This document shows positions 9,232 to 62,186 of a DNA stretch of 64,000 nt, piece by piece. The notes below the pieces were generated by a model. It saw only the letters and a list, made by a program, of their open reading frames with translations. It was not told where the DNA came from and made no database searches. The stretch's first letter is position 1; every line of letters begins with the position of its first letter. The position numbers were made by a program, and so were the translations under genes. This DNA is from Hydrogenophaga sp. (lineage in GTDB: Bacteria; Pseudomonadota; Gammaproteobacteria; Burkholderiales; Burkholderiaceae_C): contig NZ_JAHBZK010000015.1 in assembly GCF_019635465.1 (NCBI RefSeq), positions 1 through 64,000 on the forward strand. The letters are read 5' to 3'.

Positions 9232-9304
9232 GCGGGGCCACCTCGGTGTTGCGCCAGCGGGGCGCATGGTGGCGGAAGACACGACGGGCGCAGCAACCGC
9301 GGTT

Positions 9305-9394
9305 CACGCTCCCTACGCTGGCATGGTCCAGATCAGGTTCGTGGGGACTCTCTCAGCCCGCCGCGCTGATGGCGATGGCGGGCACCCCCGGTGA
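9305..9394 (-). promoter_or_regulatory. TPP riboswitch (THI box) controlling thiBPQ
   Basis: On the minus strand all conserved blocks of the thiamine pyrophosphate aptamer appear in order: GGGGTGCCCG (about 9390-9381), GGGCTGAGA, GAACCTGATCTGG and ATGCCAGCGTAGGGA (ending near 9307). The region lies 73 bases upstream of the thiB ATG. In the family, TPP binding shuts off translation or transcription; the short spacing to the ribosome site of thiB suggests control of translation initiation, but I did not find a definite sequestering stem. Confidence 0.95.
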
Positions 9395-9419
9395 AGGCCT
9401 GGATTGTAGGCGCCGGGGT

Positions 9420-45317: not shown

Positions 45318-46574
45318 ATGAAGACAGGCCTGGACTTTCTGCTGGCCGCCAAGCGCTGCGAGATCGATGGCCTGCAGCGACTGGCGCTCACCGCCACCTG
45401 GGTGGACGTGACCGCGCGCCTGGTGCACACGCTGCAGCGCGAGCGCGGGCTCTCCAACATGTACCTGGCCGCACAAGGCGAGCGCCACACCGGGGCGCGC
45501 CTGACGCAGATCGCCATGTCCCGGCAGGTCGAGGCCGACTGGCGCCAGCAGATCGAGCGTGTGGACGCCAGTGCCGCGCAGGCGGGCCCGGGGGCGCGCC
45601 TGTTCAGCCGCATCGCCTATGTCCTGCAAGGCCTGGACGGACTGGACGCCCTGCGCCAACGCATCGACGAGCGCCGCTGGGACACGGCGCAGTCCACCGA
45701 AGCCTATGTCCGGCTGATCGCCGCGCTGCTGGCGGTGGTGTTCGAGGCCGCCGACAGCGCGTCCGACCCCGCCATCTCGCGTCGACTGGTGGCGCTGTTC
45801 AACTTCATGCAGGGCAAGGAGTTCGCGGGGCAGGAACGCGCGGTAGGCGCGGCCATGTTCGGCAGCGGCCACGCCGAGCAGGCCGAGCAACAGCGGTTGC
45901 TGCACCTGATCGAATCGCAGGAGCGCTGCCTCGAAGTGGTGGGCACCTACGCACCGCCCGAGATCCGCGCCATGCTCAGCGCGCCGCATGTCAGCGCCAC
46001 GCTGGCCGACCTGGAACGCCTGCGCCGGGTGCTGTGCACGACCACGCAGGGCTCGGTGCTCAAGCCGGAACTCAGCCAGGTCTGGTTCGACACCTGCACC
46101 GCACGCATTGACGCCATGAAGGCGGTGGAAGACCGCCTGACCCAGGACCTCGGAGAGGCCTGTAGCGCCAAGATCGCCCAGGCCCAGGCCGAACTGGCCA
46201 GCTTTGGTGCAATCAGCGCCGACGCACCGCCCGACCCGCTGGACTTCTACCAGGCCGCGGGCGACGGCGCGCAGGCCGCCCAGGCGTCCAAGAGCTTCGC
46301 CCTCACGCTGGAGCGCTCGGTGCTCGACCTGGTGCACGACCAGGCCAAGCGGCTGCAGGCCATGGGCGACGAACTCGAGGCCGTGCGCGCCAGCCTGAAC
46401 GAGCGACGGGTCATCGAGCGCGCCAAGGGCCTGTTGATGGCGCACCGCCACCTCAGCGAAGCCGAAGCGCACAAGACGCTGCGCCAGATGGCCATGAACC
46501 AGAACCGGCGCATCGTCGACGTCGCCGAGGCGGTGCTGGCCATGGCCGACGTGCTGCCCGCGGCGCGCTCCTGA
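45318..46574 (+). CDS. nasR: NIT-ANTAR nitrate-responsive antiterminator (NasR type)
   Basis: 418 residues. The N-terminal two-thirds is a NIT (nitrate/nitrite-sensing) domain, recognised by the [17 protein letters not shown] helix at 39-55, with long amphipathic helices. The last 66 residues form an ANTAR domain: [20 protein letters not shown], then [22 protein letters not shown]. In Klebsiella, NasR binds nitrate or nitrite and then a two-hairpin RNA, stopping an intrinsic terminator in the nasF leader. Here two such leaders follow, before nrtA and before nirB. No DNA-binding domain is present, so the target is RNA. It is the first gene of the nitrate region; its own promoter is between it and tsaD. 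Confidence 0.9.
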
Positions 46575-46743
46575 CCCCCTCCGGCCGCTGCCCGTGCGCC
46601 ACCAATTCGGGGCGCACCACGCCCCGACATGCTGCATTGCACCACGGGTGGGCGAGGACACCAGGCGGTAGGACCCTCACCACACCTTCAGAATCTCCAA
46701 TGATTTCAACAACTTGGCATTCCACGCCAATGCCAGGAAGCGC

Positions 46744-46759
46744 TGGCACGCTTGCTGCT
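46744..46759 (+). promoter_or_regulatory. Sigma-54-type promoter of the nrtABC unit
   Basis: TGGCACG, four bases, then CTGCT: the -24/-12 pattern TGGCACG-N4-TTGCW with one mismatch, and the diagnostic GG and GC exactly 10 bases apart (46745-46746, 46757-46758). The start would be near 46770, just before the two-hairpin leader. Sigma-54 promoters of nitrogen assimilation are activated by NtrC. A weak NtrC-like half-match (GCACCACGGGTGGGC) is at 46639-46653 and a 21-base palindrome lies at 46715-46735. Confidence 0.78.
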
Positions 46760-46778
46760 TGATACGAAGCGACGGTGA

Positions 46779-46881
46779 CCAGCCAACGGCGGCGGGGCAC
46801 CCCCCGGTCAGACCGGAACAGGACAACGGCGTCCATTGCGTGTTCGCGAAAGCGGGCGCTGCGATGGACGCCATTTTTTTT
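46779..46881 (+). promoter_or_regulatory. ANTAR-type antitermination leader before nrtA
   Basis: Hairpin 1: GCC at 46782-46784 and GGC at 46791-46793 with hexaloop AACGGC. Hairpin 2: GGAC 46821-46824 and GTCC 46831-46834 with the same hexaloop AACGGC. Both loops have A at position 1 and G at position 4, the ANTAR target rule. The terminator stem (GGCGTCCAT 46828-46836 with ATGGACGCC 46864-46872, then eight T) uses the 3' half of hairpin 2, so binding hairpin 2 blocks the terminator. The nrtA ATG is 31 bases beyond. Confidence 0.85.
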
Positions 46882-46912
46882 GGCCCGATTTTTTGTCTCG
46901 CAGGAGCATTCC

Positions 46913-48283
46913 ATGACTGCATCGCCCCGCCACTTCAACCGCCGCCAGTTCACCGCCCAGGCTTTGGCCCTGGCTGGCGCCACCACCCTCGGCCTGCCGG
47001 CCCACGCACAGAAGGGCCCACGTCCCGAAAAGGAAGCCCTCAAGTTCGGCTTCATCAAACTCACCGACTGCGCCCCGCTGGTCATCGCCTACGAAAAAGG
47101 CTTCTTCGAAGACGAAGGCCTGTTCGTCACGCTGGAAGCACAGGCCAACTGGAAGGTGCTGCTCGATCGCGTGATCGACGGCCAGCTCGACGGCGCGCAC
47201 ATGCTGGCCGGCCAGCCGCTGGGCGCCTCGATCGGCTTCGGCACCAAGGCCGACATCGTCACCGCCTTCAGCATGGACCTCAACGGCAACGCCATCACCG
47301 TCTCCAATGCGGTGTGGGCCGAGATGAAGCCGCACCTGCCGATGAAGGACGGCAAGGTCGTGCACCCGGTCAAGGCCGACGCGCTCAAGAAAGTGGTCGA
47401 TGCCTGGAAGAAGGAAGGCAAGCCTTTCAAGATGGGCATGGTCTTCCCCGTCTCGACGCACAACTACGAACTGCGCTACTGGCTCGCCGCCGGTGGCCTC
47501 AACCCCGGCTACTACACCGCCAGCGACATCTCGGGCACCCAGCGCGCCGACGTGCTGCTCTCGGTCACCCCGCCGCCGCAGATGCCCGCCACCATGGAAG
47601 CCGGCACCATCCACGGCTATTGCGTGGGCGAGCCCTGGAACCAGCAGGCAGTGTTCAAGGGCATTGGTGTGCCGGTGATCACCGATCACCAGATCTGGAA
47701 GAACAACCCCGAGAAGGTGTTCGGTGTGATGGGCGAGTGGGCCAAGGCCAACCCCAACACGCACGTGGCCGTCATCAAGGCGCTGATTCGCGCCGGCCAG
47801 TGGCTCGATGCCTCCATGGCCAACCGCGTCGAGGCGGTCAAGATCCTGTCGAAGTCGCAATACGTCGGCGCCGACGCCGAGGTGATCGGCAACAGCATGA
47901 CCGGCACCTTCGAGTTTGAAAAAGGCGACAAGCGCCCGGCACCGGACTTCAACGTCTTCTTCCGCGACTACGCCACCTACCCCTTCTACAGCGACGCCAT
48001 CTGGTACCTCACCCAGATGCGCCGCTGGGGTCAGATCACCGAGTCCAAGCCCGACAGCTGGTACATGGAAACGGCCAAGCGCGTGTACCGACCCGACGTC
48101 TACCTGCAGGCCGCCAACGCGCTGGTCGCCGAAGGCAAGATCAAGGCCACCGACGTGCCCAAGACCGATAGCTTCAAGCCGGTGGACAACACCTTCATCG
48201 ACGGCGTGGCCTACGACGGTCGCAAGCCCAACGAGTACCTGTCCAAGTTCAAGATCGGCCTCAAAGAGTCCGACAAGGGGTAA
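46913..48283 (+). CDS. nrtA: Nitrate ABC transporter substrate-binding protein NrtA/NasF
   Basis: 456 residues with an AGGAG site before the ATG. A twin-arginine-like signal ([20 protein letters not shown], cleavage near residue 33 after AHA) sends it to the periplasm, typical of NrtA. The mature protein matches the nitrate/sulfonate binding family: [20 protein letters not shown] near 46-65, [19 protein letters not shown] near 180 and [15 protein letters not shown] near 240. First gene after the leader; nrtB follows 3 bases later. Confidence 0.92.
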
Positions 48284-48286
48284 GCC

Positions 48287-49258
48287 ATGGCGATCGCAGC
48301 ACGACTCTTTGGCGGCGCTGCCGCCCTGCGCAACCCGGCGGAGCTGGGCCGCAAACTGGTGATGGGCGCGGGCGTTCCGCTCGTGGCCTTCGCCATCTTC
48401 CTGGCGCTGTGGTCCGTCACGGCCGCGCGCATCCAGACCAGCCTGGGCGCCGTGCCCGGTCCGCTGCAGGTGGCCGAGCAGGCGGTCTCGCTGGTGAAGG
48501 AACACATGGCCGAGCGTGAGCGCCAGGCCGCCTTCTACGAGCGCCAGGCCAAACGCAATCAGGAGCGCCTGGCCGAAGACCCGAGCTATGAGGTCCGCAC
48601 CATCAAATGGACCGGCAAGGCCACCTACATCGACCAGATCCTCACCAGCCTGAAGACGGTCTTCGTGGGCTTTTTGCTGGCCACCCTGGTGGCGGTGCCG
48701 CTGGGCATTCTGGCTGGTACGTCCAAGGTCGTGCAGGCCGCCATCAACCCGATGGTGCAGCTGTTTCGCCCGGTGTCGCCGCTGGCCTGGCTGCCCATCG
48801 TCACGCTGGTGGTGAGTGCGGTGTACGTCACCGCCGACGAGCCGATGTTCCAGAAGTCCTTCCTGATCTCGGCCATCACGGTGACGCTGTGCTCGCTGTG
48901 GACCACGCTGATCAACACCGCCATCGGCGTGACCTCGGTCGACAAGGACCTGGTCAACGTCGGCAAGGTGCTGCAACTGCCGCTGGGCACGCGCATCCGC
49001 AAGATCATCGTGCCCTCGGCCCTGCCCTTCATCTTCACCGGCATGCGCCTGTCGCTCGGTGTGGGCTGGATGGTGCTGATCGCCGCCGAAATGCTGGCGC
49101 AGAACCCAGGCCTGGGCAAATTCGTCTGGGACGAGTTCCAGAACGGCAGCTCCGAGTCGCTGAGCCGCATCATGGTCGCGGTGTTCACCATCGGTGCCAT
49201 CGGCTTCGCGCTCGACCGCCTGATGCTGGTCCTGCAGAACCTGGTCACGCGACGCTGA
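48287..49258 (+). CDS. nrtB: Nitrate ABC transporter permease NrtB
   Basis: 323 residues with about six transmembrane helices. The first ~45 residues hold a hydrophobic anchor, then a charged stretch of about 35 residues ([20 protein letters not shown], likely cytoplasmic) precedes the main ABC permease domain ([20 protein letters not shown]...). The ATPase-contact loop is [20 protein letters not shown] near 225-245. Partner of nrtA and the fused ATPase. 3 bases after nrtA. Confidence 0.92.
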
Positions 49259-49280
49259 CATGGGCACGGGAGCCACCGCC

Positions 49281-51134
49281 ATGAACGCCATTGCCATGCC
49301 GCGCGCGATCCTGGACGTCGTCAGCGCGCACGACACCCCTGCACCGACCACCCATGCCGCCACGCAAACCGCCGCACTCGAACTGCGCAACGTCTGCAAA
49401 GGCTACGGCAGCGGCGCCTCGCGCAGCGAGGTGCTCACCAACCTGAACCTGAGCGTCGCGCCGGGCGAGTTCGTCGCCATCGTCGGCTTCTCGGGCACGG
49501 GCAAGACCACGCTCATCAACCTGCTGGCTGGCCTGACCCAGGCGGACAGCGGTGACGTTCTCAAGAACGGACAGCCCATCACCGAGCCCGGCCCCGACCG
49601 CGGCATCGTGTTCCAGAGCTACTCGCTCATGCCCTGGCTCACCGTGCGCGAGAACGTGGCCCTGGCGGTGGACCGCGTCAGCGCACACCTGAGCGCCAAG
49701 GCGCGCGCCGAGGAGGTCAAACGCTACGTGGCCATGGTGGGCCTGTCGGCCGCCATCGACAAACGCCCCTCGCAGCTCTCAGGTGGCATGCGCCAGCGCG
49801 TGTCGGTGGCGCGTGCCCTGGCCACCGATCCGGACACACTGCTGCTCGACGAGCCGCTGTCGGCGCTGGATGCGCTCACCCGCGCCAACCTGCAGGACGA
49901 GATCGTTCGCATCTGGAGCGAGAACCGCAAGACGGTGGTGCTCATCACCAACGACGTCGACGAGGCCTTGATGGTGGCCGACCGCATCATCCCGCTGGAC
50001 ATCGGACCGGGCGCCGCGCTGGGCCCGTCGTTCACGGTCGACATCGAACGCCCGCGCGATCGCCGCGCGATGAACCACGACGAGCGCTTCAAGACCCTGC
50101 GTGGCCAGATCACCGAGCACCTGATCGGTCTGGCGCACCAGCACGCCGCACAACAGGGCGGCAACGTGATCCAGCTGCCCAGCCTGACCCCGCGTGTGCC
50201 GGGCCAGTCGACATCGGCCGCCCCCGGGCCCACCCTGGCCAGCCTGCTCAAGATGCGCCACGCCGCACTGGCCGAGCGCATCGAGACCGAGGCCTTCGAG
50301 GCGCAACAGGTCACGCAGTCGATAGCCGCTGATGCCACCGGCCTGGGCGGTGACGAGCGCTTCGCCGAGTTCTCGCGCCTGACCAAGGTCTACCCCACGC
50401 CCAAGGGGCCGCAGGCCGTGGTCGAGGGCTTCGACCTCAAGATCCGCAAGGGCGAATTCATCTCGCTCATTGGCCACTCGGGCTGCGGCAAGTCCACCGT
50501 GCTGTCGATGATGGCCGGCCTGACCGACGTGACCGAGGGCGTGATCGTGCTCGACGGCCGCGAAGTGCGCGACGCCGGCCCGGACCGGGGCATCGTGTTC
50601 CAGGCCCCCAGTCTGGTGCCCTGGCTCACCGCGCACGAAAACGTGATGCTGGGCGTGGCGCGCGTGTTTCCGCACGCCAGCGAAGCCGAGCGCCGCGACA
50701 CGGTGGGCTACTACCTCAACCGCGTCGGCCTGGGCAGTGCGATGAACAAGCACGCCAGCGAGCTGTCCAACGGCATGAAGCAGCGCGTGGGCATTGCGCG
50801 CGCCTTTGCCCTGCAACCCAAGATGCTGTTGCTCGACGAGCCCTTCGGCATGCTGGACTCGCTCACCCGCTGGGACCTGCAGGAAGTGCTGATGGAGGTG
50901 TGGTCGCGCAGCCAGGTCACCGCCATGATGGTCACGCACGACGTGGACGAAGCCATCCTGCTGGCCGACCGCGTGGTGATGATGACCAACGGGCCGCGCG
51001 CACGCGTCGGCAAGGTCATGGACGTGCCCCTGCCCCGCCCGCGCACCCGCGAAGCGCTGCTCAAGCACCCCCGCTACTACGAGCTGCGCGAGGAGCTGAT
51101 CGGCTTCCTCGAAGACTGCGGCAGCCAGCACTGA
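49281..51134 (+). CDS. nrtC: Nitrate ABC transporter, two fused ATPase domains (NrtCD-like)
   Basis: 617 residues from the ATG at 49281 (GGGAG upstream); 49260 is an alternative. Domain 1: Walker [10 protein letters not shown] (69-77), signature LSGGM (166-170), Glu191 after Walker B, and Asn224 where the H-loop histidine is expected (TNDVDEA). A linker of about 80 residues follows. Domain 2: Walker [10 protein letters not shown] (398-406), signature LSNGM (495-499), H-loop His553 in VTHDVDEA. In the sandwich, site 1 would pair domain 1 Walker/H-loop with the domain 2 signature and be degenerate; site 2 keeps all residues. The usual cyanobacterial NrtC has a substrate-like C-terminus instead; this is a tandem ATPase, so nrtCD is a better label. 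Confidence 0.88.
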
Positions 51135-51188
51135 CGGTTACCCCCGACCCTGTTCCCTTCCCTCTTTCCCCATCCAAAGGAATTCACC

Positions 51189-52001
51189 ATGGCCTACCTC
51201 GCACCCACCGAGTTCGTGACCAAGATGGTTGACGCAGGCGAATCCAAGCTGCTGATGTCCACCCGCGACACGCTGATCCGCGCCTACATGGCCGGCGCCA
51301 TTCTGGCGCTGGCCGCGGCGTTTGCCGTGACCATCACGGTCAACACCGGCAACCCGCTACTGGGCGCGCTGCTGTTCCCGGTGGGCTTTTGCATGCTCTA
51401 CCTGCTGGGCTTTGACCTGTTGACCGGCGTGTTCACGCTCGCACCCCTGGCGGTGCTGGACAAGCGGCCCGGCGCCACCTGGTCGGGCGTGCTGCGCAAC
51501 TGGACCCTGGTCTTCTTCGGCAACTTCGCCGGCGCCCTCACCGTCGCCGTCTTCATGGCCATCATCTTCACCAACGGCTTCTCGGCCGAACCCAACGCCA
51601 TCGGCCAGAAGATCGGCCACATCGGCGAAGGCCGCACGGTGGGTTACGCCGCCCTTGGTGCCGCCGGCATGCTGACGCTGTTCGTGCGCGCGGTGATGTG
51701 CAACTGGATGGTGTCCACCGGTGTGGTGGCGGCCATGATGTCCACCTCGGTGTCGGGCAAGGTCATCGCCATGTGGATGCCCATCCTGGTGTTCTTCTAC
51801 CTGGGCTTTGAGCACTCCATCGTGAACATGTACCTGTTCCCCTCGGGCCTGATGCTCGGCGGTCACTTCACCTTCATGGACTACCTGCTCTGGAACGAGA
51901 TCCCCACCGTGCTGGGCAACCTCGTGGGCGGCCTGACCTTCGTTGGCGCGACGCTGTATTCCACCCACTACAAGACGGCGCCCAAGCTGGCGGCTCGCTG
52001 A
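51189..52001 (+). CDS. Formate/nitrite transporter family channel
   Basis: 270 residues, six hydrophobic helices, the length of the FNT (FocA/NirC) family. Characteristic stretches are GADAG-like positions replaced by MAGAILALAAAFAVTITVNT near 34-53, GNFAGAL near 116, and the nitrite-type channel region VRAVMCNWMVSTGVVAAMMS near 160-180 with the conserved His-equivalent region in helix 5. FNT channels carry nitrite or formate (with protons) across the inner membrane. In this cluster it most likely supplies or relieves nitrite made by NasA. Position between nrtC and the kinase gene is characteristic of betaproteobacteria. Confidence 0.85.
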   Translation: MAYLAPTEFVTKMVDAGESKLLMSTRDTLIRAYMAGAILALAAAFAVTITVNTGNPLLGALLFPVGFCMLYLLGFDLLTGVFTLAPLAVLDKRPGATWSGVLRNWTLVFFGNFAGALTVAVFMAIIFTNGFSAEPNAIGQKIGHIGEGRTVGYAALGAAGMLTLFVRAVMCNWMVSTGVVAAMMSTSVSGKVIAMWMPILVFFYLGFEHSIVNMYLFPSGLMLGGHFTFMDYLLWNEIPTVLGNLVGGLTFVGATLYSTHYKTAPKLAAR

Positions 52002-52067
52002 GCGATCGGGGCCTTGTCCCTGGCGAGCCCCGCTGCCAGCGCGCACGGGGCTCGTTTCGCATCTGCC

Positions 52068-53804
52068 ATGACAAGCGAACTCTCGGTGAGCGTGGGTCAG
52101 CACAGCGACAAGGGTCGCAAGCCGCTGAACCAGGACTTCCACGGCCTGTGCATTCCGAGGCAACCCTTGCTGGGCGCCAAGGGCATCGCCGTCGCACTGG
52201 CCGACGGCATCAGCAGCAGCGACGCGGGCCACGTCGCCAGCGCCTCCGCGGTCCAGAGCTTCCTGGACGACTACTACTGCACCTCGGACGCGTGGTCGGT
52301 GAAGACGTCGGCGCACCGTGTGATCGAGGCGGCCAACGCCTGGCTGTATGCCCAGACCTTTCAGGGTCAGGGACGCTTCGACAAGGACCGCGGTCATGTG
52401 TGCACCTTCAGCGCGCTGGTGCTGCGCTCGACCACGGCCCACCTGTTCCATGTGGGCGACGCGCGCATCTACCGGGTGCACGCGCAATCGCTGGAACAGC
52501 TCACCAACGACCACCGCGTCCACGTGTCGCGCGAGGAGAACTTCCTCAGCCGCGCGCTGGGCATCGCGTCCTCGGTCGACATCGACTACCAGGCGCAGCC
52601 CCTGGCGGTGGGCGACACCTTTCTGCTCGCCACCGATGGCGTGCATCAACACGTGGGAGCGGATGTTCTTGCGGCCACCATCCAGGCGAACGCCGCTGAT
52701 CTGGACCACGCAGCCCGCACCATCATCGATGAAGCGCTGCACAACGGCAGCCCCGACAACCTCACGGTGCAGATCGTGCGCGTGGACGCCCTGCCCGATC
52801 CGAACCGGCACGAGCTGCCCCTGCAGGCCGGCGATCTGCCGCTGCCACCACCGCTGTCCGCACGCGCCGAGCTCGACGGCTTTCGCATCGAGCGCGAACT
52901 GCATGGCAGCAGCCGCAGTCACGTCTATCTCGCCACCGACCTGGCCAACGGCAATGAGCTGGTGATCAAGACGCCCTCGGTGGACCTGCAGGACGACAAG
53001 GCCTACCGCGAACGTTTTCTGATGGAGGAATGGGTGGCCAGGCGCATCCACAACGACCACGTGATGCGCGCCTACCCCTCATGCCGCCAGCGCACCTGCC
53101 TCTACACCGCATTGGCCTACGTCCCCGGCCAGACCCTGGCGCAATGGATGCGTGACCACCCGACGCCCGATCTGGCGCAGGTGCGCGACATCGTCGAGCA
53201 AGTGGCCAAGGGCCTGCGCGCCTTTCACCGCATGGAGATGCTGCACCAGGACCTGCGCCCCGAGAACATCATGATCGACCCGCAGGGCACGGTGTGCCTC
53301 ATCGACTTCGGCTCGGTCGCCGTGGCCAGCCTGGCGGAGACCGCACCACCCGACGCCGCGTCGGCCATCCCTGGCACCTTGCAGTACACCGCGCCCGAGT
53401 ACTTTCTTGGCCAAGGCGGCAGCGCACGCGCCGACACCTTCGCCCTGGCGAGCATCACCTACCAGATGCTGACCGGCCGGCTGCCCTACGGCCTCGGGCT
53501 CACGCGCGTGCGCCAAGGTCAGGACCTCAAGCGCCTGTCGTATGAACCGATCCGTTTGCGCCAGCCGCACATCCCCGTCTGGGTCGACAAAGCCATCGAG
53601 AAGGCCGTGAGTCTGGACCCGCACCGACGCCACGACGAGGTCTCGGAATTCGCCTGGGACCTGCGTCACCCGAACCGCGCCTACCTGCGCGATCGCGAGC
53701 CGCCCCTGGTCGAGCGCCACCCGGTGGCGTTCTGGCAAGGGGTGTCTTTTGTCCTGCTGTTGCTCCTGCTCGCCGTGCTGGCCACGCACCATGCGCCGCA
53801 CTGA
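52068..53804 (+). CDS. PP2C phosphatase-serine/threonine kinase fusion, membrane-anchored
   Basis: 578 residues from the ATG at 52068; a TTG at 52014 would add 18. Residues about 1-250 are a PP2C domain: NQD (21-23), ADG (45-47), VGDARIYR near 138, ATDGVHQH and SPDNLTVQIVR. Residues about 270-550 are a Hanks-type kinase: Lys301 in VIK, HQDLRPEN with Asp395 (HQD rather than HRD), DFG with Asp413, and APE-like APEYF. A transmembrane helix at about 555-575 anchors the C-terminus. Homologues occur beside nitrate assimilation genes (for example in Pseudomonas), but their substrate is unknown. The gene lies between the FNT channel and the nirB promoter. Confidence 0.85.
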   Translation: MTSELSVSVGQHSDKGRKPLNQDFHGLCIPRQPLLGAKGIAVALADGISSSDAGHVASASAVQSFLDDYYCTSDAWSVKTSAHRVIEAANAWLYAQTFQGQGRFDKDRGHVCTFSALVLRSTTAHLFHVGDARIYRVHAQSLEQLTNDHRVHVSREENFLSRALGIASSVDIDYQAQPLAVGDTFLLATDGVHQHVGADVLAATIQANAADLDHAARTIIDEALHNGSPDNLTVQIVRVDALPDPNRHELPLQAGDLPLPPPLSARAELDGFRIERELHGSSRSHVYLATDLANGNELVIKTPSVDLQDDKAYRERFLMEEWVARRIHNDHVMRAYPSCRQRTCLYTALAYVPGQTLAQWMRDHPTPDLAQVRDIVEQVAKGLRAFHRMEMLHQDLRPENIMIDPQGTVCLIDFGSVAVASLAETAPPDAASAIPGTLQYTAPEYFLGQGGSARADTFALASITYQMLTGRLPYGLGLTRVRQGQDLKRLSYEPIRLRQPHIPVWVDKAIEKAVSLDPHRRHDEVSEFAWDLRHPNRAYLRDREPPLVERHPVAFWQGVSFVLLLLLLAVLATHHAPH

Positions 53805-53839
53805 GCGCTACCCGAATTGAGGCATGGCACGCGCGGCAC

Positions 53840-53854
53840 GCACCACCCTGGCGC
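53840..53854 (+). promoter_or_regulatory. Candidate NtrC binding site upstream of nirB
   Basis: GCACCACCCTGGCGC matches the NtrC consensus GCACC-N5-GGTGC with one base changed (GGCGC). Its centre is about 85 bases upstream of the predicted start, a normal enhancer distance for sigma-54 promoters. Confidence 0.55.
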
Positions 53855-53905
53855 AACGACGGGGTCGCGATGGCGCAAAACACCGGGAAATGGCCTGTTT
53901 TGTCG

Positions 53906-53921
53906 TGGCATGCAACTTGCG
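53906..53921 (+). promoter_or_regulatory. Sigma-54-type promoter of the nirBD-nasA unit
   Basis: TGGCATG, CAAC, TTGCG: the -24/-12 pattern with GG (53907-53908) and GC (53919-53920) exactly 10 bases apart. The predicted start is near 53932. The -24 box (TGGCATG) and -12 box (TTGCG) each differ from TGGCACG and TTGCW by one base. Confidence 0.78.
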
Positions 53922-53958
53922 AACACAACGCGCAAACGGTCCGAGTGACCGTGACGGC

Positions 53959-54049
53959 CGCCAACGCAACGAGGCATTGGCGACCAACCGGACAAAGGCG
54001 TCTACACATGCGCGGCCCACTGGGCTGGCACTGTGCAGACGCCTTTTTT
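53959..54049 (+). promoter_or_regulatory. ANTAR-type antitermination leader before nirB
   Basis: Hairpin 1 (53959-53982): CGCCAA/TTGGCG outer stem, GC/GC inner pairs and hexaloop AACGAG. Hairpin 2 (53990-54003): GGAC and GTCT with hexaloop AAAGGC. Both loops carry A1 and G4. The terminator stem (AAGGCGTCT 53995-54003 with AGACGCCTT 54037-54045) is followed by T to 54049 and shares bases with hairpin 2. The second hairpin is nearly identical to the one before nrtA. An extra hairpin ACGGTC/GACCGT is at 53936-53952. The nirB ATG is 34 bases after the terminator. Confidence 0.85.
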
Positions 54050-54083
54050 GTTTCTTCAGACCCGACTGACCGATGGAGCTGCA

Positions 54084-56561
54084 ATGAACAAACCCAGACT
54101 TGTGATGGTCGGCAACGGCATGGCCGGTGTGCGCACCCTCGAAGAGCTGCTCAAGCTGGCCCCCGAGCTGTACGACATCACGGTGTTCGGCGCCGAGCCG
54201 CACCCCAACTACAACCGCATCCTGCTCTCGCCAGTGCTTGCGGGCGAACAGACGCTTGAGCAGATCGTGCTCAACGACTGGGACTGGTACCGCGACAACC
54301 ACATCACGCTGCACACCGGTCGCCGCGTCACGCGCATCGACCGCGTGCGCCGCGTGGTGGTGGCCGATGACGGTCAGGGTGATGTGATCGAGGCGCCCTA
54401 CGACCGCCTGATCCTGGCCACCGGCTCCAACCCCTTCATGCTGCCCATCCCGGGCAAGGACCTGCCCGGTTTGATCGCCTACCGCGATATCGCCGACACG
54501 CAGGCCATGATCGACGCGGCCAAGGCGCACAAGCACGCGGTGGTTATCGGTGGTGGCCTGCTGGGGCTGGAGGCCGCCAACGGACTGATGAAGCGCGGCA
54601 TGGACGTGACGGTGGTCCACGTGGCACCCTGGCTCATGGAGCGCCAGCTCGACGAGACCGCGGCCAAGCTGCTGCAGCAGTCGCTTGAGGCGCGGGGGCT
54701 GAAGTTCCTCATCGGCGCGCAGACCGAATCGCTGCTCGGCACCGATCGCGTGAAATCGGTGCGCTTCACGGACGGCACCGAAGTGCCCGCCGATCTGGTG
54801 GTGATGGCGGTGGGTATTCGCCCCAACACCGCGCTCGCCGAATCGGCCGGGCTGCACGTCAACCGCGGCATCGTGGTCAGCGACACGCTGCAGACCGTCA
54901 CCGATGCGCGCATCTACGCCGTGGGCGAATGTGCGGCGCACCGCGGTATTGCCTACGGCCTGGTGGCCCCGCTGTTCGAGCAAGGCAAGGTGCTGGCCAA
55001 CCATCTGGCCGAGTTCGGCATCGGCCGCTACAGCGGCTCGCTCACGTCGACCAAGCTCAAGGTCACCGGCATCGACCTGTTCTCGGCCGGCGACTTCATG
55101 GGCGGCGACGGCACCGACACCATCGTCATGAGCGATCCGGCCGGCGGCGTCTACAAGAAGCTGGTGCTCAAGGGCGACCAACTGGTGGGTGCCTGCCTGT
55201 ACGGCGACACGGTCGACGGCAGCTGGTACTTCAAGCTCCTGCGCGACGGCCGCAACCTGGCCGACGTGCGCGAGCGGCTGATGTTCGGCGAGCACTTCAG
55301 CACCAGCGCCATCGGTGACGTGGGCCACCAGGGCCAGAGCAAGGCCGCGGCCATGGCCGACAGCGACGAAGTCTGCGGTTGCAACGGCGTCAACAAGGGC
55401 GCCATCTGCAAGGCCATCCGCGACAAGGGCCTGTTCACGCTGGATGAGGTGCGCAAGCACACCAAGGCCAGCGCCAGCTGCGGCTCGTGCACCGGCCTGG
55501 TCGAGCAGATCCTGATGTTCACCGCTGGCGGCGACTACTCGGCCACGCCCAAGACCAAGGCCATCTGCGGCTGCACCGAACACGGCCACCAGGCGGTGCG
55601 TGATGCGATCCGCACCAACCGCCTGACCACGCGCGCCGCGGTGTTCAGTGGCCTCAACTGGCGAACGCCCGACGGCTGCGCCACCTGCCGCCCCGCCATC
55701 AACTACTACCTCATCAGCACCTGGCCCAAGGAAGCCAGGGACGATCCGCAGAGCCGCTTCGTCAACGAGCGCATGCACGCCAACATCCAGAAGGACGGCA
55801 CCTACAGCGTGATCCCGCGCATGTGGGGCGGAGAGACCACCGCCGACGAACTGCGCCGCATCGCCGACGCGGTCGACAAGTACCAGATCCCCACCGTCAA
55901 GGTCACCGGCGGCCAGCGCATCGACCTGCTGGGCGTGAAGAAGGAAGACCTGCCCGCGGTGTGGAAGGACATCGGCATGCCCAGTGGCCACGCCTACGCC
56001 AAGGCACTGCGCACGGTGAAGACCTGCGTGGGCAGCGAGTGGTGCCGCATGGGCACGCAGGACAGCACTCAAATGGGCAAGGACCTGGAGCGGGCCATGT
56101 GGCGCATGTATGCGCCGCACAAGGTCAAGTTCGCCGTCAGCGGCTGCCCGCGCAACTGCGCCGAGGCCGGCATCAAGGACGTGGGCATCGTCGGCGTGGA
56201 CAGCGGCTGGGAGATGTACGTGGCCGGCAACGGCGGCATCAAGACCGAGGTCGCCCAGTTCCTGGTCAAGCTCAAGACCGCCGAGGAGGTGATGGAATAC
56301 ACCGGCGCGTTCATGGAGCTGTACCGCCAGGAAGGCTGGTACCTGGAGCGCACCGTCCACTACGTGGCGCGCGTCGGGCTCGACCACGTCAAACGCCGCA
56401 TCCTCGACGACGCCGAAGGTCGCAAGGCGCTGTGGGCGCAGCTGCAGTTCGCCCTCGACGGCGAGCCCGATCCCTGGTTCCAGCACCAGGCCGCTGCCGT
56501 CGACACGCGCCAATACATTCCGATTCACGCGGCGCCCGTCGCCGAAGGGAGCCTGGCATGA
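54084..56561 (+). CDS. nirB: Assimilatory nitrite reductase large subunit NirB
   Basis: 825 residues. Residues about 1-300 are the NAD(P)H/FAD domain (MVGNGMAGVRTLEELL start, ATGSNPFMLPIPG, GGGLLGLEAANGL); BFD [2Fe-2S] clusters start near 430 (CGCNGVNKGAICKA) and 494 (CGCTEHGHQ). The siroheme-[4Fe-4S] site is CVGSEWC (near 647) and SGCPRNC (near 685). It reduces nitrite to ammonium with electrons from NAD(P)H. GGAG is 6 bases before the ATG; nirD overlaps the stop (ATGA). Confidence 0.96.
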   Translation: MNKPRLVMVGNGMAGVRTLEELLKLAPELYDITVFGAEPHPNYNRILLSPVLAGEQTLEQIVLNDWDWYRDNHITLHTGRRVTRIDRVRRVVVADDGQGDVIEAPYDRLILATGSNPFMLPIPGKDLPGLIAYRDIADTQAMIDAAKAHKHAVVIGGGLLGLEAANGLMKRGMDVTVVHVAPWLMERQLDETAAKLLQQSLEARGLKFLIGAQTESLLGTDRVKSVRFTDGTEVPADLVVMAVGIRPNTALAESAGLHVNRGIVVSDTLQTVTDARIYAVGECAAHRGIAYGLVAPLFEQGKVLANHLAEFGIGRYSGSLTSTKLKVTGIDLFSAGDFMGGDGTDTIVMSDPAGGVYKKLVLKGDQLVGACLYGDTVDGSWYFKLLRDGRNLADVRERLMFGEHFSTSAIGDVGHQGQSKAAAMADSDEVCGCNGVNKGAICKAIRDKGLFTLDEVRKHTKASASCGSCTGLVEQILMFTAGGDYSATPKTKAICGCTEHGHQAVRDAIRTNRLTTRAAVFSGLNWRTPDGCATCRPAINYYLISTWPKEARDDPQSRFVNERMHANIQKDGTYSVIPRMWGGETTADELRRIADAVDKYQIPTVKVTGGQRIDLLGVKKEDLPAVWKDIGMPSGHAYAKALRTVKTCVGSEWCRMGTQDSTQMGKDLERAMWRMYAPHKVKFAVSGCPRNCAEAGIKDVGIVGVDSGWEMYVAGNGGIKTEVAQFLVKLKTAEEVMEYTGAFMELYRQEGWYLERTVHYVARVGLDHVKRRILDDAEGRKALWAQLQFALDGEPDPWFQHQAAAVDTRQYIPIHAAPVAEGSLA

Positions 56562-56953
56562 GCGCCGAACAACCCGCCTGGCTCGCCATCTGCTCGGTCG
56601 ACGACATCCCGGTGCTGGGCTCGCGCACCGTGCCGCGCGAGCGCGGCGTGGACGTCGCCATCTTCCGCAACGCCGAGAACGAGGTGTTCGCCCTGCTCGA
56701 CCGCTGCCCCCACAAGGGCGGCCCCCTGAGCCAGGGCATCGTGTTCGGCCAGCGCGTGGCCTGCCCGCTGCACAACTGGACCATCGGCCTCGACAGCGGC
56801 CAGGCCCAGGCGCCCGACGAAGGCTGCACCCCGCGCTTTGCGGTGCGCGTGATCGAAGGGCGGGTGCACCTGGATGCGCACGAGCTCGCCACGCTGGGCA
56901 CCGACCTGGCCCGTCCCATCGCCGGCCCCGCTCGCCGCAAGCCACAGCCATGA
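56558..56953 (+). CDS. nirD: Nitrite reductase small subunit NirD (Rieske type)
   Basis: 131 residues. Rieske-type [2Fe-2S] site: CPHKGGPL (about 50-57) and CPLHNW (about 69-74). It pairs with NirB in nitrite reduction. ATGA overlap with nirB and with nasA on its other end, so the three are translationally linked. Confidence 0.94.
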   Translation: MSAEQPAWLAICSVDDIPVLGSRTVPRERGVDVAIFRNAENEVFALLDRCPHKGGPLSQGIVFGQRVACPLHNWTIGLDSGQAQAPDEGCTPRFAVRVIEGRVHLDAHELATLGTDLARPIAGPARRKPQP

Positions 56954-59718
56954 ACGACACCCGCTCCACCTGCCCTTACTGCGGCGTGGGCTGCGGGGTC
57001 ATCATTGAAAGCGACGGCGCGCGCATCACCGGCGTGCGCGGCGACCCCGACCATCCGGCGAACTTCGGGCGCCTTTGCAGCAAAGGGGCAACGCTGCACC
57101 TGACCGCCAGCCCCGCCATCACGGCGCAGGCGCGACTGCTGTACCCCATGCAGCGCGCCAGCCGCGGCGCACCGGCGCAGCGCGTCGGCTGGGACGACGC
57201 GCTCGACACGGCGGCCAGGCGGTTCAATGCCGTGATCGACACCCACGGCCCCGACGCGGTGGGCTTCTACGTGAGCGGCCAGTTGCTCACCGAGGACTAC
57301 TACGTCTTCAACAAGCTGGCCAAGGGCCTCATCGGCACCAACAACATCGACACCAACTCGCGCCTGTGCATGAGCAGCGCGGTGGCGGGCTACAAGAAGA
57401 CCCTGGGCGCCGACGCGCCACCCGCGTGCTACGACGACGTCAACCACGCAGACTGTCTGTTCATCATCGGCAGCAACGCGGCCTACGCACACCCGGTGCT
57501 GTTTCGCCGCATTGAGGACGCCAAACGCGCGCGGCCCGACATGAAGGTGATCGTGGCCGACCCGCGACGCACCGACACCGCCGGCCTGGCCGACCTGTAC
57601 CTGCCGCTGCAGCCCGGCACCGACGTGATGCTGTTCCACGGCCTGCTGCACCTGATGCTGTGGGAGGGCTGGACCGACAACGCCTACATCGCGCAACACA
57701 CCACCGGCTTCGATGCCTTGAAGCAACTGGTGCGCGACGCCACGCCCGCGCGTGTGGCGCAGGTCTGTGGCCTGCGCGAAGAAGATCTGTTGACCGCCGC
57801 GCGCTGGTTCGCCCTGTCGCCAGCCACGCTCAGCCTGTACTGCCAGGGCCTCAACCAGAGCCGCAGCGGTACGGCCAAGAACGCCAGCTTGATCAACCTG
57901 CACCTGGCCACCGGCCAGATCGGCAAACCCGGCGCGGGCCCGTTCTCGCTGACGGGTCAGCCCAACGCCATGGGCGGGCGCGAGGTCGGTGGCCTGGCCA
58001 ACCTGCTCTCGGCCCACCGCGACCTCGCCAACCCGGCCCATCGCGCCGAGGTGGCCGCGCTGTGGGGCGTGCCTGACGTGCCCGCCAAGCCCGGCCTGAC
58101 CGCGGTTGAGCTGTTCGAGGCCGCCGCCGACGGCGCCGTCAAGGCCTTGTGGATTGCCTGCACCAACCCCGCGCAATCCATGCCCGACCAGGCCACCGTG
58201 CGCCGCGCACTGCAACGCGCCGAGTTCGTGGTGGTGCAGGAGGCCTTTCTCACCACCGCCACCGCCGACTTGGCCGACCTGCTGCTGCCCGCCACCACCT
58301 GGGGCGAAAAGGACGGCACCGTCACCAACAGCGAGCGCCGCATCACGCGCGTGCGCCCGGCGATCCCGGCACCGGGCGAGACGCGCCACGACTGGCGCAT
58401 CGGCGTGGACTTTGCACAGCGCCTGCGCCCGGGCAACGTCCTCTTCCCCTACCACACGCCCGAATCGGTGTGGAACGAACACCGCGAATCCACGCGTGGA
58501 CGCGACCTGGACATCACCGGCCTGAGCTATGCCCTGCTCGAGCAGCAAGGCCCGCAGCAATGGCCGTTCGCGCAAGGCGCATCGCAAGGCCGCGAGCGCT
58601 TGTACGAAGACGGCGTGTTTCCCACCGCGGACGGGCGGGCCCGCTTCGTGGCCACGCCCTATCAGCCCGTGGCCGAACCACGCCAGAGCAGCTTTCCCTT
58701 CTCGCTGACCACCGGCCGGCTGCGCGATCAATGGCATGGCATGAGCCGCACCGGTACGCTGGGCCGTCTGTTCGGCCACGTGGCCGAGCCCTGCGTCGAA
58801 CTGCATCCGCAGGAGATGGCGCGCCTGAGCCTGGCCAACGGCGATATTGCAGAAGTCACCAGCAAGCGCGGCACGCTGCGCCTGCCCGCCCGCGCCAGCG
58901 AGTCGGTCGCGCTCACGCAGGCCTTCATTGCCATGCACTGGGGCGCCGAGTACCTCAGCGGGCGCGGCAAGGATGGTGAACCCATTGCCGGCATCAACGC
59001 CATCACCACCTCGGCGCACTGCCCTGACTCAAAGCAGCCGGAACTCAAGCACGCCGCGGTGCGCATCGAGCGCGCCGAGCAAGCCTGGACCTTGCTGGCC
59101 ATGGCCTGGCTGCCGGAGGCCAACGCCATCAGCGCGCGCGAAACCTTGCGTCAGCTGCTGCCCGAATTGCCCTTTGCCCTGTGTGTGCCCTTCGGGCGCG
59201 AGCGCAGCGGTGTGCTGCTGCGCGCGTCGGCCGCCGAGGCGCCTTCACCCGACCTGCTCGCGCGCATCGAAGCGGCGCTGGGCCTGAACGACAGCGGCGC
59301 GCTGCGCTACGAAGACGCGCGGGCCGGGCAACGCCGGGTGGTGCTGCGCGAGCAGCGCGCCGACGGCCAGCCCGGGTTGCGGGCCTTTCTGATCGCCGGC
59401 GACACACGCGCGCAAACCTGGCTCAAACCCCTGCTCGAAGACGAGCAACCGCTGGCCATCGACGCCCGCCTGCTCCTGCTGCCGGGCGCCCAGGCGCCCG
59501 TGGCCATGCCCGCGCGTGGCCGCCAGGTGTGCACCTGCTTCGACGTGAGCGAAGACGCGATTCAGGCCCACCTGGCCCAGGCCGACGGCGACGACGCCGA
59601 GCGGCTGGCCAGCCTGCAGGCCACGCTGCGCTGCGGTACCAACTGCGGCTCCTGTGTGCCCGAACTGCAACGCCTGGTGCGCCTGAGCGCCCACCCGGCG
59701 GCCGAGGCCACCATATAA
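56950..59718 (+). CDS. nasA: Assimilatory nitrate reductase catalytic subunit NasA
   Basis: 922 residues, a molybdenum bis-MGD enzyme. N-terminal [4Fe-4S] ligands are Cys8, Cys11, Cys15 and Cys43. Mo-cofactor binding stretches (NLHLATGQIGKPGAGPFSLT, TTWGEKDGTVTNSERRITRV) are present. The C-terminus holds a BFD-type [2Fe-2S] domain with VCTCFDVSE near 860 and CGTNCGSC near 895-902, typical of proteobacterial NasA. No twin-arginine signal, so it is cytoplasmic. Reduces nitrate to nitrite for NirBD. Confidence 0.95.
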   Translation: MNDTRSTCPYCGVGCGVIIESDGARITGVRGDPDHPANFGRLCSKGATLHLTASPAITAQARLLYPMQRASRGAPAQRVGWDDALDTAARRFNAVIDTHGPDAVGFYVSGQLLTEDYYVFNKLAKGLIGTNNIDTNSRLCMSSAVAGYKKTLGADAPPACYDDVNHADCLFIIGSNAAYAHPVLFRRIEDAKRARPDMKVIVADPRRTDTAGLADLYLPLQPGTDVMLFHGLLHLMLWEGWTDNAYIAQHTTGFDALKQLVRDATPARVAQVCGLREEDLLTAARWFALSPATLSLYCQGLNQSRSGTAKNASLINLHLATGQIGKPGAGPFSLTGQPNAMGGREVGGLANLLSAHRDLANPAHRAEVAALWGVPDVPAKPGLTAVELFEAAADGAVKALWIACTNPAQSMPDQATVRRALQRAEFVVVQEAFLTTATADLADLLLPATTWGEKDGTVTNSERRITRVRPAIPAPGETRHDWRIGVDFAQRLRPGNVLFPYHTPESVWNEHRESTRGRDLDITGLSYALLEQQGPQQWPFAQGASQGRERLYEDGVFPTADGRARFVATPYQPVAEPRQSSFPFSLTTGRLRDQWHGMSRTGTLGRLFGHVAEPCVELHPQEMARLSLANGDIAEVTSKRGTLRLPARASESVALTQAFIAMHWGAEYLSGRGKDGEPIAGINAITTSAHCPDSKQPELKHAAVRIERAEQAWTLLAMAWLPEANAISARETLRQLLPELPFALCVPFGRERSGVLLRASAAEAPSPDLLARIEAALGLNDSGALRYEDARAGQRRVVLREQRADGQPGLRAFLIAGDTRAQTWLKPLLEDEQPLAIDARLLLLPGAQAPVAMPARGRQVCTCFDVSEDAIQAHLAQADGDDAERLASLQATLRCGTNCGSCVPELQRLVRLSAHPAAEATI

Positions 59719-61442: not shown

Positions 61443-61481
61443 CGCAACCGCGCCACCCGCGTGGCGCAGCGATTGCTTGTG

Positions 61482-62186
61482 ATGCGCATGACGTCCATTG
61501 CCGCACCACTTTCGCCCAACCCGGCCGCGCACTCAGCCGGGCCAACACCCCCGCACATCGCCGGCCTGTCACTCGTCAATCTGGCCGCCCGCCAGCGCAT
61601 GCTGTCGCAGCGGATGATCCTGCAGACGGTGCTGGCCGCGCAGGGTGACGGCGCACGCTTGCAGGCCGCGCAGCGCAGCCTGCGCATGTTCAGCGAAAGC
61701 CAGCAACACCTGCAGGCCACGGTCGCGCAACTGGATGCCGACGGCGCACAACGCATACGTGACACCTACGAAGGCACGCACCGGATCGGCCCGCTGGTGG
61801 CCGGCTTCGTACAGCTCATGCAGCAGGCGCTGACCCAGATCGAAGCGGGCAACCCCAGGGCAGGCGATACCGTGGCCGAGGTCGTTGCCCATACCGACCG
61901 GGTGCTTGAGGCGCTCAACACCGCCACCACCGCGTTCGACGAGATCGCGCGCACCCGCGCGGATGCACTCATGAAAGAGCTCACCGGCATCGTGGGCGAC
62001 ATTCAGGGCGTCGCCAAGGAGGCCAAGGTGGTGAGCTTCAACGCCCAGGTCATGGCCGCACGCGCAGGCGTTCACGGGCGTGAATTCGCCGTAGTGGCCA
62101 ATACCTTGTCCGACATCACCACCGAAATCGACCAGCTCTCTCGCAAGGCGGGCGAGCTGGCCGAGCGCAGCCGGCGCGCCGGCTGA
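61482..62186 (+). CDS. Soluble P-box/PilJ-type sensor with short chemoreceptor tail
   Basis: 234 residues from the ATG at 61482 (GTG 61461 and ATG 61488 are alternatives; none has a clear ribosome site). No transmembrane helix. The N-terminal half has a PilJ/NarX-type sensor helix, SLVNLAARQRMLSQRM near 30-45, the P-box-like motif seen in nitrate sensors and pilus chemoreceptors. The C-terminal ~60 residues are a shortened methyl-accepting signalling tip (VVSFNAQVMAARAGVHGREF, FAVVANTLSDIT). A role in sensing nitrate or nitrite fits the position after cobA, but no chemotaxis genes are near. Inference only. Confidence 0.65.
   Translation: MRMTSIAAPLSPNPAAHSAGPTPPHIAGLSLVNLAARQRMLSQRMILQTVLAAQGDGARLQAAQRSLRMFSESQQHLQATVAQLDADGAQRIRDTYEGTHRIGPLVAGFVQLMQQALTQIEAGNPRAGDTVAEVVAHTDRVLEALNTATTAFDEIARTRADALMKELTGIVGDIQGVAKEAKVVSFNAQVMAARAGVHGREFAVVANTLSDITTEIDQLSRKAGELAERSRRAG

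Follow-up and report, generated by a model that had tools for sequence, protein, structure and literature searches.

When one nitrate-responsive antiterminator gene heads a long run of nitrate assimilation genes, does its product act on a single RNA leader or on several? This question is raised by a 64,000-nucleotide (nt) stretch of Hydrogenophaga sp. DNA (contig NZ_JAHBZK010000015.1, positions 1 to 64,000 of the forward strand), the whole of which we refer to as the window. Within it, a gene for a NasR-type protein is followed on the same strand by nrtA and nirB, among others (Table 1). We conclude that this one protein very probably controls two transcription-antitermination leaders in this genome, one before nrtA (46779-46881) and one before nirB (53959-54049). 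An earlier note on this DNA had described both as ANTAR-type leaders, each with a hairpin 1 (P1), a hairpin 2 (P2) and an overlapping terminator, and both direct reading and a descriptor search bear this out.

In both leaders P2 shares bases with the terminator, and all four hexaloops carry A at position 1 and G at position 4 (A1/G4). The inner P1 stem of the nrtA leader is GCC-AACGGC-GGC (46782-46793), and two further pairs past a mismatch extend it to 46779-46796. The nirB P1 reads GCCAACGC-AACGAG-GCATTGGC (53960-53981), with one internal mismatch, just two pairs next to the loop and a C-G extension (53959/53982). Between the inner P1 stem and P2, the linker measures 27 nt in the nrtA leader versus 14 nt in the nirB leader, a difference absent from the earlier note, as are the linker hairpin Pm and the 5' hairpin P0 described below. 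The minimum-energy fold of each whole leader has the terminator in place of P2 and keeps P1. Folding, which the earlier note had proposed as a check, speaks for the terminators (z -7.33 for nrtA and -6.07 for nirB, values that 0 of 200 shuffles reach in either case) and not for the P1-P2 pieces alone, which fold no better than shuffles (z -0.35 and -1.35, respectively). A strict descriptor (P1, P2, overlapping terminator and at least five T) matched exactly the two leaders on both strands of the window, while 100 dinucleotide shuffles gave two matches in total and no shuffle with two; version 1 of this descriptor, with at least three contiguous P1 pairs, had missed the nirB leader, and the P1 rule was relaxed once after the miss was seen. 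Rfam release 15, at gathering level, reports for the window a thiamine pyrophosphate (TPP) riboswitch and tRNA only, and neither leader; a generic promoter/terminator scan of the window likewise lists neither leader's terminator.

Each leader is also preceded by a sigma54-type box. The consensus of such boxes is TGGCAYG-N4-YTGC, and transcription begins some 12 nt beyond its GC, the spacing with which we predicted the leader start positions. Perfect matches to TGGCAYGNNNNYTGC number two in the window, one at each leader; with one mismatch there are 11 matches versus 14.3 expected, and the box is weak evidence alone. A scan for NtrC sites with up to two mismatches gave 16 matches in the window versus 8.9 expected, so that the possible site at 53840 is likewise weak alone, and the scan found none just before nrtA.

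As the earlier note had claimed, 45318-46574 encodes a NIT-ANTAR antiterminator of the NasR type: Pfam identifies a NIT domain (4.2e-54) and a C-terminal ANTAR domain (1.1e-19), and phmmer aligns residues 5-409, that is, the full length, with Klebsiella oxytoca NasR (4akk; E 3.8e-47). The nearest named relative found is from Hydrogenophaga borbori (75% identity), while K. pneumoniae NasR is a distant homologue (35%). An NCBIfam search at 1e-20 returned no match for the NasR or the nrtA product. RNA-binding residues of K. oxytoca NasR include R340, K347 and N373, and Arg is tolerated at K345 (PMC7496416). The first three align with identical residues in the window protein and K345 aligns with Arg; the R340 position is Arg in all 24 aligned NasR-type proteins. 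Its ANTAR domain is the single one found in the window's genome, which is 88% complete. From the relatives and from the NasR family, we infer that this protein binds both leaders and that it does so in response to nitrate.

Relatives of the two leaders were sought in 132 loci (the window and 131 others, with some genomes present twice), at least one descriptor match being found in 106, some by chance. Because loci are duplicated across collections (e.g. L035/L103, L036/L115 and L064/L157), counts per locus are redundant. We obtained 133 distinct P2 cores that precede a T-run, 119 of which are true cores, whose loops fit A1/G4 because the pattern required it. A sigma54-type 15-mer lies 30-110 nt upstream of loop 2 in 106 of these 119 leaders, versus 1 of 2380 letter-shuffled segments. 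The P1 loop motif occurs within 45 nt in 101 of the 119; the 18 without it include the window's nirB leader, whose AACGAG misfits the motif. Merging duplicates left 97 leaders (61 of a long and 36 of a short class, described below; the window's nirB leader is excluded) that were picked by loop sequence and not by stems, and in these P1 pairing is supported. With 42 of 58 long-class leaders, picked by eye, aligned by MAFFT on sequence alone, the P1 covariation score is 0.524 versus 0.205 in shuffled alignments (0 of 500 reach it), with a maximum of 0.190 when the stem is slid; by a weaker measure, 8 pairs are changed on both sides versus 6.5 (9 of 500 reach it). For the terminator, in a set of 48 leaders (45 of 78 plus 3 from enterobacteria), the score is 0.450 versus 0.173 (0 of 500; slid maximum 0.117), and the weaker measure gives 9 pairs versus 7.5 (30 of 500). 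A change of loop-2 base 3 from C to A goes with a change of its terminator partner from G to U (CG in 25, AU in 20 and another combination in 3 of the 48 leaders). Thus, covariation of the stems, which the earlier note had named as a check, is found for P1 and the terminator, while the P2 stem varies too little to be informative.

We built a covariance model of P2 and terminator from these 48 leaders, which include both window leaders (model R1). Among 37 related leader places found with it, G4 of loop 2 is kept in all 37 and A1 in 32, being G in the other 5; the loop rule of the earlier note therefore stands for the four window loops and for G4, and is relaxed at A1. The sequence GAAGGC is found as loop 2 at L227, L231, L235, L236 and L041, with G in place of the A taken to be essential; three of these leaders precede nirB and one nrtA. 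In an AT-rich genome of another family, two exact GGACAAAGGCGTCC cores (L189:5039 and L189:8537) occur with no obvious P1 by motif. A short-class alignment (A3, 28 of 36 leaders) placed nirB-type and nrtA-type P1 in different registers, and no model was built on it.

Model R1 finds in the window's genome the nirB leader (3.0e-8), the nrtA leader (2.1e-7), an antisense echo of one of them (0.05) and nothing else. We then surveyed 200 family genomes, which include that of the window and are not independent of each other. R1 matches occur in 97, an ANTAR domain in 155 and a NasR match in 53. An ANTAR domain is present in 96 of the 97 R1-positive genomes, and an R1 match in only 1 of the 45 genomes without ANTAR (Fisher 2e-14). 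R1 was trained partly on surveyed NasR genomes; with all 53 NasR genomes left out, 46 of 47 R1-positive genomes have ANTAR (Fisher 2e-8). In G027 (L238), a leader match near a contig end occurs with no ANTAR domain found, and given this position the ANTAR gene may be missing from the assembly. Genomes with several leaders are not rare: at least two R1 matches occur in 20 of the 200, of which 18 have NasR and 11 a single ANTAR domain, although such counts are rough both ways (G020 has 2 by R1 versus 3 by the descriptor, and one G150 match, C14, resembles an ordinary terminator). The first gene at 22 leader places is nirB in 7, nrtA in 6, nirC in 2, a major facilitator superfamily (MFS) transporter in 2 and unlabelled in 5. 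In the cases examined, separate pathway genes have their own leader, namely nirC (L223, L224), an MFS transporter (L222, L035) and nirB; the nirC leaders of L223 and L224 have a long linker and share a contig with nasR, at distances of about 545 and 590 kb.

The leaders fall into two geometric classes. Loop 2 is AACGGC in all 61 long-class leaders, with a distance from P1 loop to P2 of 27-34 in 55 of them, and AAAGGC in 33 of the 36 short-class leaders, with a distance of 13-20. The window holds one of each, its nrtA leader being long class and its nirB leader short class. All 13 nirB leaders, from 11 distinct genomes, have A as the third base of loop 2 (12 AAAGGC and 1 AAAGAC). Among nrtA leaders this base is C in 61 and A in 18; another 8, assigned to a wrong-frame call, divide 4/4, and these nrtA counts include duplicates between collections. 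The K. pneumoniae nasF-type leader (P1 CGAACC-AATGGC-GGTTCG, a 9-nt linker and P2 GGAT-AAAGGC-GTCC) is of the short class. By this comparison it is the window's nirB leader that has the classical form, and its nrtA leader that departs from it.

Several observations weigh against control of both leaders by the one NasR-type protein. The position of K. oxytoca W362, whose Ala mutant loses RNA binding, is His385 here (codon 46470-46472); of 24 related proteins, 19 have His and 5 have Tyr at this place, which argues against a simple transfer of the Klebsiella picture; the E359 position is Ala in the window protein. The P1 of the nrtA leader is weak, with three contiguous pairs only, and in the minimum-energy fold of that whole leader a helix (46776-46780/46806-46810) encloses P1 and breaks the linker hairpin Pm described below. 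In relatives, the nearly invariant P2 stem yields no covariation evidence, and one of the five loops with G for A1 (L041) comes from a genome that has NasR and just one ANTAR domain. In the survey, 3 of the 53 NasR genomes have no R1 match, and 59 genomes with an ANTAR domain have none either. Finally, with the window's genome 88% complete, the absence of a second ANTAR gene or of a further leader is not proven.

Three other readings were considered, all of them improbable. If the leaders were plain intrinsic terminators with fortuitous P1 and P2 hairpins, the short stems, the three contiguous pairs of the nrtA P1 and the unremarkable z values of the P1-P2 pieces would be as expected, but the P1 covariation, the conserved loops, the co-occurrence with ANTAR and the sigma54-type box at a similar distance make this scarcely credible. 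That the nirB leader answers to another ANTAR protein, such as NasT with NasS, is suggested by ANTAR domains in shorter frames (about 210-260 amino acids, NasT-like in size) that adjoin leaders with the same core in other family genomes (e.g. G135, G040), and by the 47 of 97 leader genomes without a NasR match, some of which have such a short frame next to the leader; the single ANTAR domain found in the window's 88% complete genome argues against it, and we regard it as unlikely here. The two leaders might also be recent copies of each other, their P2 cores differing by two letters only, and the earlier note had spoken of one switch duplicated. This does not hold up, since linker class and loop-2 base 3 follow the downstream gene across species. 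The two leaders therefore look old and separate, and recent copying is very unlikely. Control of both leaders by the one NasR-type protein thus remains our preferred reading.

How would one protein serve two linkers of such different length? The linker of the nrtA leader contains a mini-hairpin, Pm. The 61 long-class linkers merge to 52 distinct ones, of which 48 have a predicted hairpin (Fisher-combined p 5e-11 versus dinucleotide shuffles, the linkers not being independent) and 15 are significant alone; the window's own Pm is not (p 0.13 with dinucleotide and 0.07 with mononucleotide shuffles). Covariation of Pm is partly supported. In the 42-leader alignment, the register GTCT/AGAC, which we chose from that alignment, scores 0.267 versus 0.160 shuffled (0 of 500 reach it; slid maximum 0.105), whereas two of the five measures do not rise above shuffles: 259 of 500 shuffles reach the number of pairs changed on both sides, and 132 of 500 that of pair types. 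MAFFT places the window's Pm out of register with most relatives, so that it is counted mostly as unpaired here. Outside the linker hairpin, a median of 8 nt is left unpaired in the long class, close to the median short-class linker of 9 nt. We examined linker length in 117 distinct linkers, all from leaders in which a sigma54-type box accompanies P1 and P2. A fold is predicted in 49 of the 51 linkers of at least 20 nt, and the unpaired remainder is 8.9 nt versus 13.1 nt in shuffles for linkers of 20-23 nt, 9.5 versus 11.2 for 24-29 nt and 7.8 versus 8.6 for 30-44 nt. Linkers of at least 45 nt (n = 4) instead keep 19.2 nt versus 9.6 in shuffles (L062 26, L074 23), and those of 12-19 nt have little or no folding effect (11.7 nt in both real and shuffled linkers of 16-19 nt). 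Given these remainders, a rule of constant spacing is kept by linkers of 20-29 nt and broken by the longest ones. Large linker hairpins also occur with other loop-2 letters (L164, L170, L236).

Of the two window leaders, the nirB leader is the short one and the nrtA leader is about 15 nt longer, yet foldable. A 20-nt extension of the eutP linker abolished antitermination by EutV in vitro (PMC8934654). In that light Pm is an appealing candidate for a spacer: it may keep the two points of protein contact at the right distance. On this view a single protein would act on leaders of two builds. The compact build would leave its linker of about 9 nt unpaired and often carry a 5' hairpin; in the extended build, Pm would be an RNA ruler that takes up the surplus so that about 8-9 nt stay unpaired. 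We consider the chances of this picture evenly balanced. The excess over shuffles across the 52 linkers, the register score of Pm and the short remainder of the 20-23-nt linkers all favor a spacer. The long remainders in the four longest linkers, the lack of effect at 12-19 nt, the two covariation measures at shuffle level and the window's own Pm, which is not significant alone and is absent from the whole-leader minimum fold, point the other way. Pm having its own job (a pause site, a folding guide or a second contact), or being simply what long GC-rich linkers do when they fold, is accordingly a serious contender, though somewhat short of an even chance. If Pm is indeed a ruler, such hairpins may free leaders from the strict limit on linker length measured for EutV, and they may have evolved repeatedly.

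The 5' hairpin of the short class, P0, lies at the predicted transcript start and folds in all 19 segments tested (combined p 8e-9). These were 19 of the 38 short-class 5' segments (8 were too short and the rest similar to others), with 2 of 58 from the long class, where the matching segment is mostly too short for a hairpin.

From 45318 to 59718, all on the plus strand, lie nasR, nrtA, nrtB, nrtC, nirC, a PP2C/kinase fusion, nirB and a nasA-type reductase, with a short nirD-like frame, so named by eye only, between the last two. The nasA-type enzyme is probably the assimilatory nitrate reductase; in an NCBIfam search, every closest model to it was under its own cut-off. In Pseudoalteromonas (L181), a bifunctional kinase/phosphatase likewise adjoins a formate/nitrite transporter and a nasR homologue, and given this neighbourhood the PP2C/kinase fusion may be part of nitrate assimilation. 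A short methyl-accepting chemotaxis protein (MCP)-signalling protein with a PilJ-like N-terminus (just below the family cut-off), possibly linked to nitrate taxis, is encoded at 61464-62186, downstream of the nir-nas-cobA genes. Elsewhere in the window, the TPP riboswitch found with Rfam lies at 9292-9399 on the minus strand.

Table 1. Coordinates of the nasR gene, the two leaders and the neighbouring genes in the window.
Feature	Position	Strand	Basis and remarks
nasR, NIT-ANTAR nitrate-responsive antiterminator protein, 418 amino acids	45318..46574	+	Pfam and phmmer
Sigma54-type box TGGCACGCTTGCTGC before nrtA leader	46744..46758	+	One of two perfect TGGCAYGNNNNYTGC matches in the window
nrtA leader P1	46779..46796	+	Loop AACGGC 46785-46790; 3 bp, mismatch, 2 bp
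Pm, mini-hairpin in nrtA leader linker	46804..46816	+	CCGGT-CAG-ACCGG, 5 bp; folds in 69-nt piece
nrtA leader P2, antiterminator hairpin	46821..46834	+	GGAC-AACGGC-GTCC; direct reading
nrtA leader intrinsic terminator	46828..46881	+	5' arm common to P2 loop and 3' strand; T8 tract
nrtA, nitrate ATP-binding cassette (ABC) transporter substrate-binding protein	46913..48283	+	Pfam NMT1_2 family; name from context
nrtB, ABC permease	48287..49258	+	Pfam; closest NCBIfam model ntrB, under its cut-off
nrtC, ABC ATPase with two ABC stretches	49284..51134	+	Pfam; start codon not fixed
nirC, formate/nitrite transporter family	51189..52001	+	Pfam
PP2C phosphatase/Ser-Thr kinase fusion, between nirC and nirB leader	52029..53804	+	Pfam; start codon not fixed
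Possible NtrC site GCACCACCCTGGCGC	53840..53854	+	One mismatch to the consensus GCACCA-N3-TGGTGC
Sigma54-type box TGGCATGCAACTTGC before nirB leader	53906..53920	+	The other of the two perfect TGGCAYGNNNNYTGC matches
P0, 5' hairpin of nirB leader	53936..53952	+	ACGGTC-CGAGT-GACCGT, 6 bp; own p 0.08
nirB leader P1	53959..53982	+	Loop AACGAG 53968-53973
nirB leader P2, antiterminator hairpin	53990..54003	+	GGAC-AAAGGC-GTCT; direct reading
nirB leader intrinsic terminator	53996..54049	+	5' arm common to P2; T6 tract
nirB, NADH nitrite reductase large subunit	54084..56561	+	TIGR02374 4.4e-281, over cut-off; Pfam
nasA-type molybdopterin oxidoreductase	56950..59718	+	Pfam; name rests on context

We propose the following mechanism, modeled on the known NasR (PMC7496416) and EutV (PMC8934654, PMC3369931) systems. 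Without nitrate, NasR would be autoinhibited, and polymerase starting at each sigma54 promoter would make a short leader and stop at the terminator, whose 5' arm is formed in each leader by the 3' half of P2. Nitrate would free NasR from autoinhibition, and the NasR dimer would grip the A1/G4 hexaloops of P1 and P2; with P2 held closed, the strand would be withheld from the terminator and polymerase would read on. In the nrtA leader, the extra linker length of about 15 nt would fold into Pm and leave an unpaired length similar to that of the nirB linker. The first leader would thereby open nrtABC-nirC-kinase and the second nirB to nasA and beyond. The second leader lies downstream of the first, on the same strand, and so read-through from the nrt operon could be gated by the second terminator as well. 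The Klebsiella nasF operon needs nitrogen limitation and nitrate together. Because the sigma54-type boxes suggest NtrC-dependent starts, both operons here may have the same double requirement.

The proposed mechanism is a known one, with the two leaders as new members and the nrtA leader as a probable new architectural variant. The Klebsiella nasF/NasR system shares the NIT-ANTAR protein encoded upstream, the sigma54-type box and the A1/G4 hexaloops in P1 and P2 (PMC7496416), as well as the overlap of P2 with the terminator and the nrt-nir genes downstream, and the window's nirB leader has its short-linker AAAGGC geometry. It differs in that 19 kb of K. pneumoniae contain one leader versus two in the window, and in that the window's nrtA leader has AACGGC as loop 2, a longer linker and Pm. 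Enterococcus faecalis EutV similarly acts as one ANTAR protein on several leaders (eutP/eutG/eutS/eutA) with dual hexaloops and P2 competing with the terminator (PMC3369931, PMC8934654); however, EutV is a two-component receiver protein, and the longer linker in the window is natural and foldable. NasS-NasT also provides nitrate-responsive ANTAR antitermination of nitrate/nitrite genes, including nirBD, and Bradyrhizobium is predicted to have more than one leader hairpin (PMC6759348, PMC12830290), but there the ANTAR protein, NasT, is separate and is held by NasS, whereas the window's protein combines NIT sensing and ANTAR output. The ANTAR motif of Ramesh et al., 2012 has the same dual hairpin, variable linker and overlapping terminator, and multi-leader ANTAR regulons, including nitrate/nitrite transporter and nitrite reductase genes, were predicted there (PMC3369931); the accessible parts of that paper describe no conserved linker hairpin and no linker classes. 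Within the open-access literature searched, a multi-leader NasR regulon in Burkholderiales and the linker-hairpin class seem to be new.

Together, these observations widen NasR control, known from one Klebsiella operon, to an apparent distributed regulon in Burkholderiales, in which nrtA, nirB and sometimes nirC or an MFS transporter would each have their own RNA switch. The linker-hairpin class also offers a natural experiment on how strictly an ANTAR dimer needs the spacing between P1 and P2, and a simple rule to find leaders that a model with a fixed linker might score poorly.

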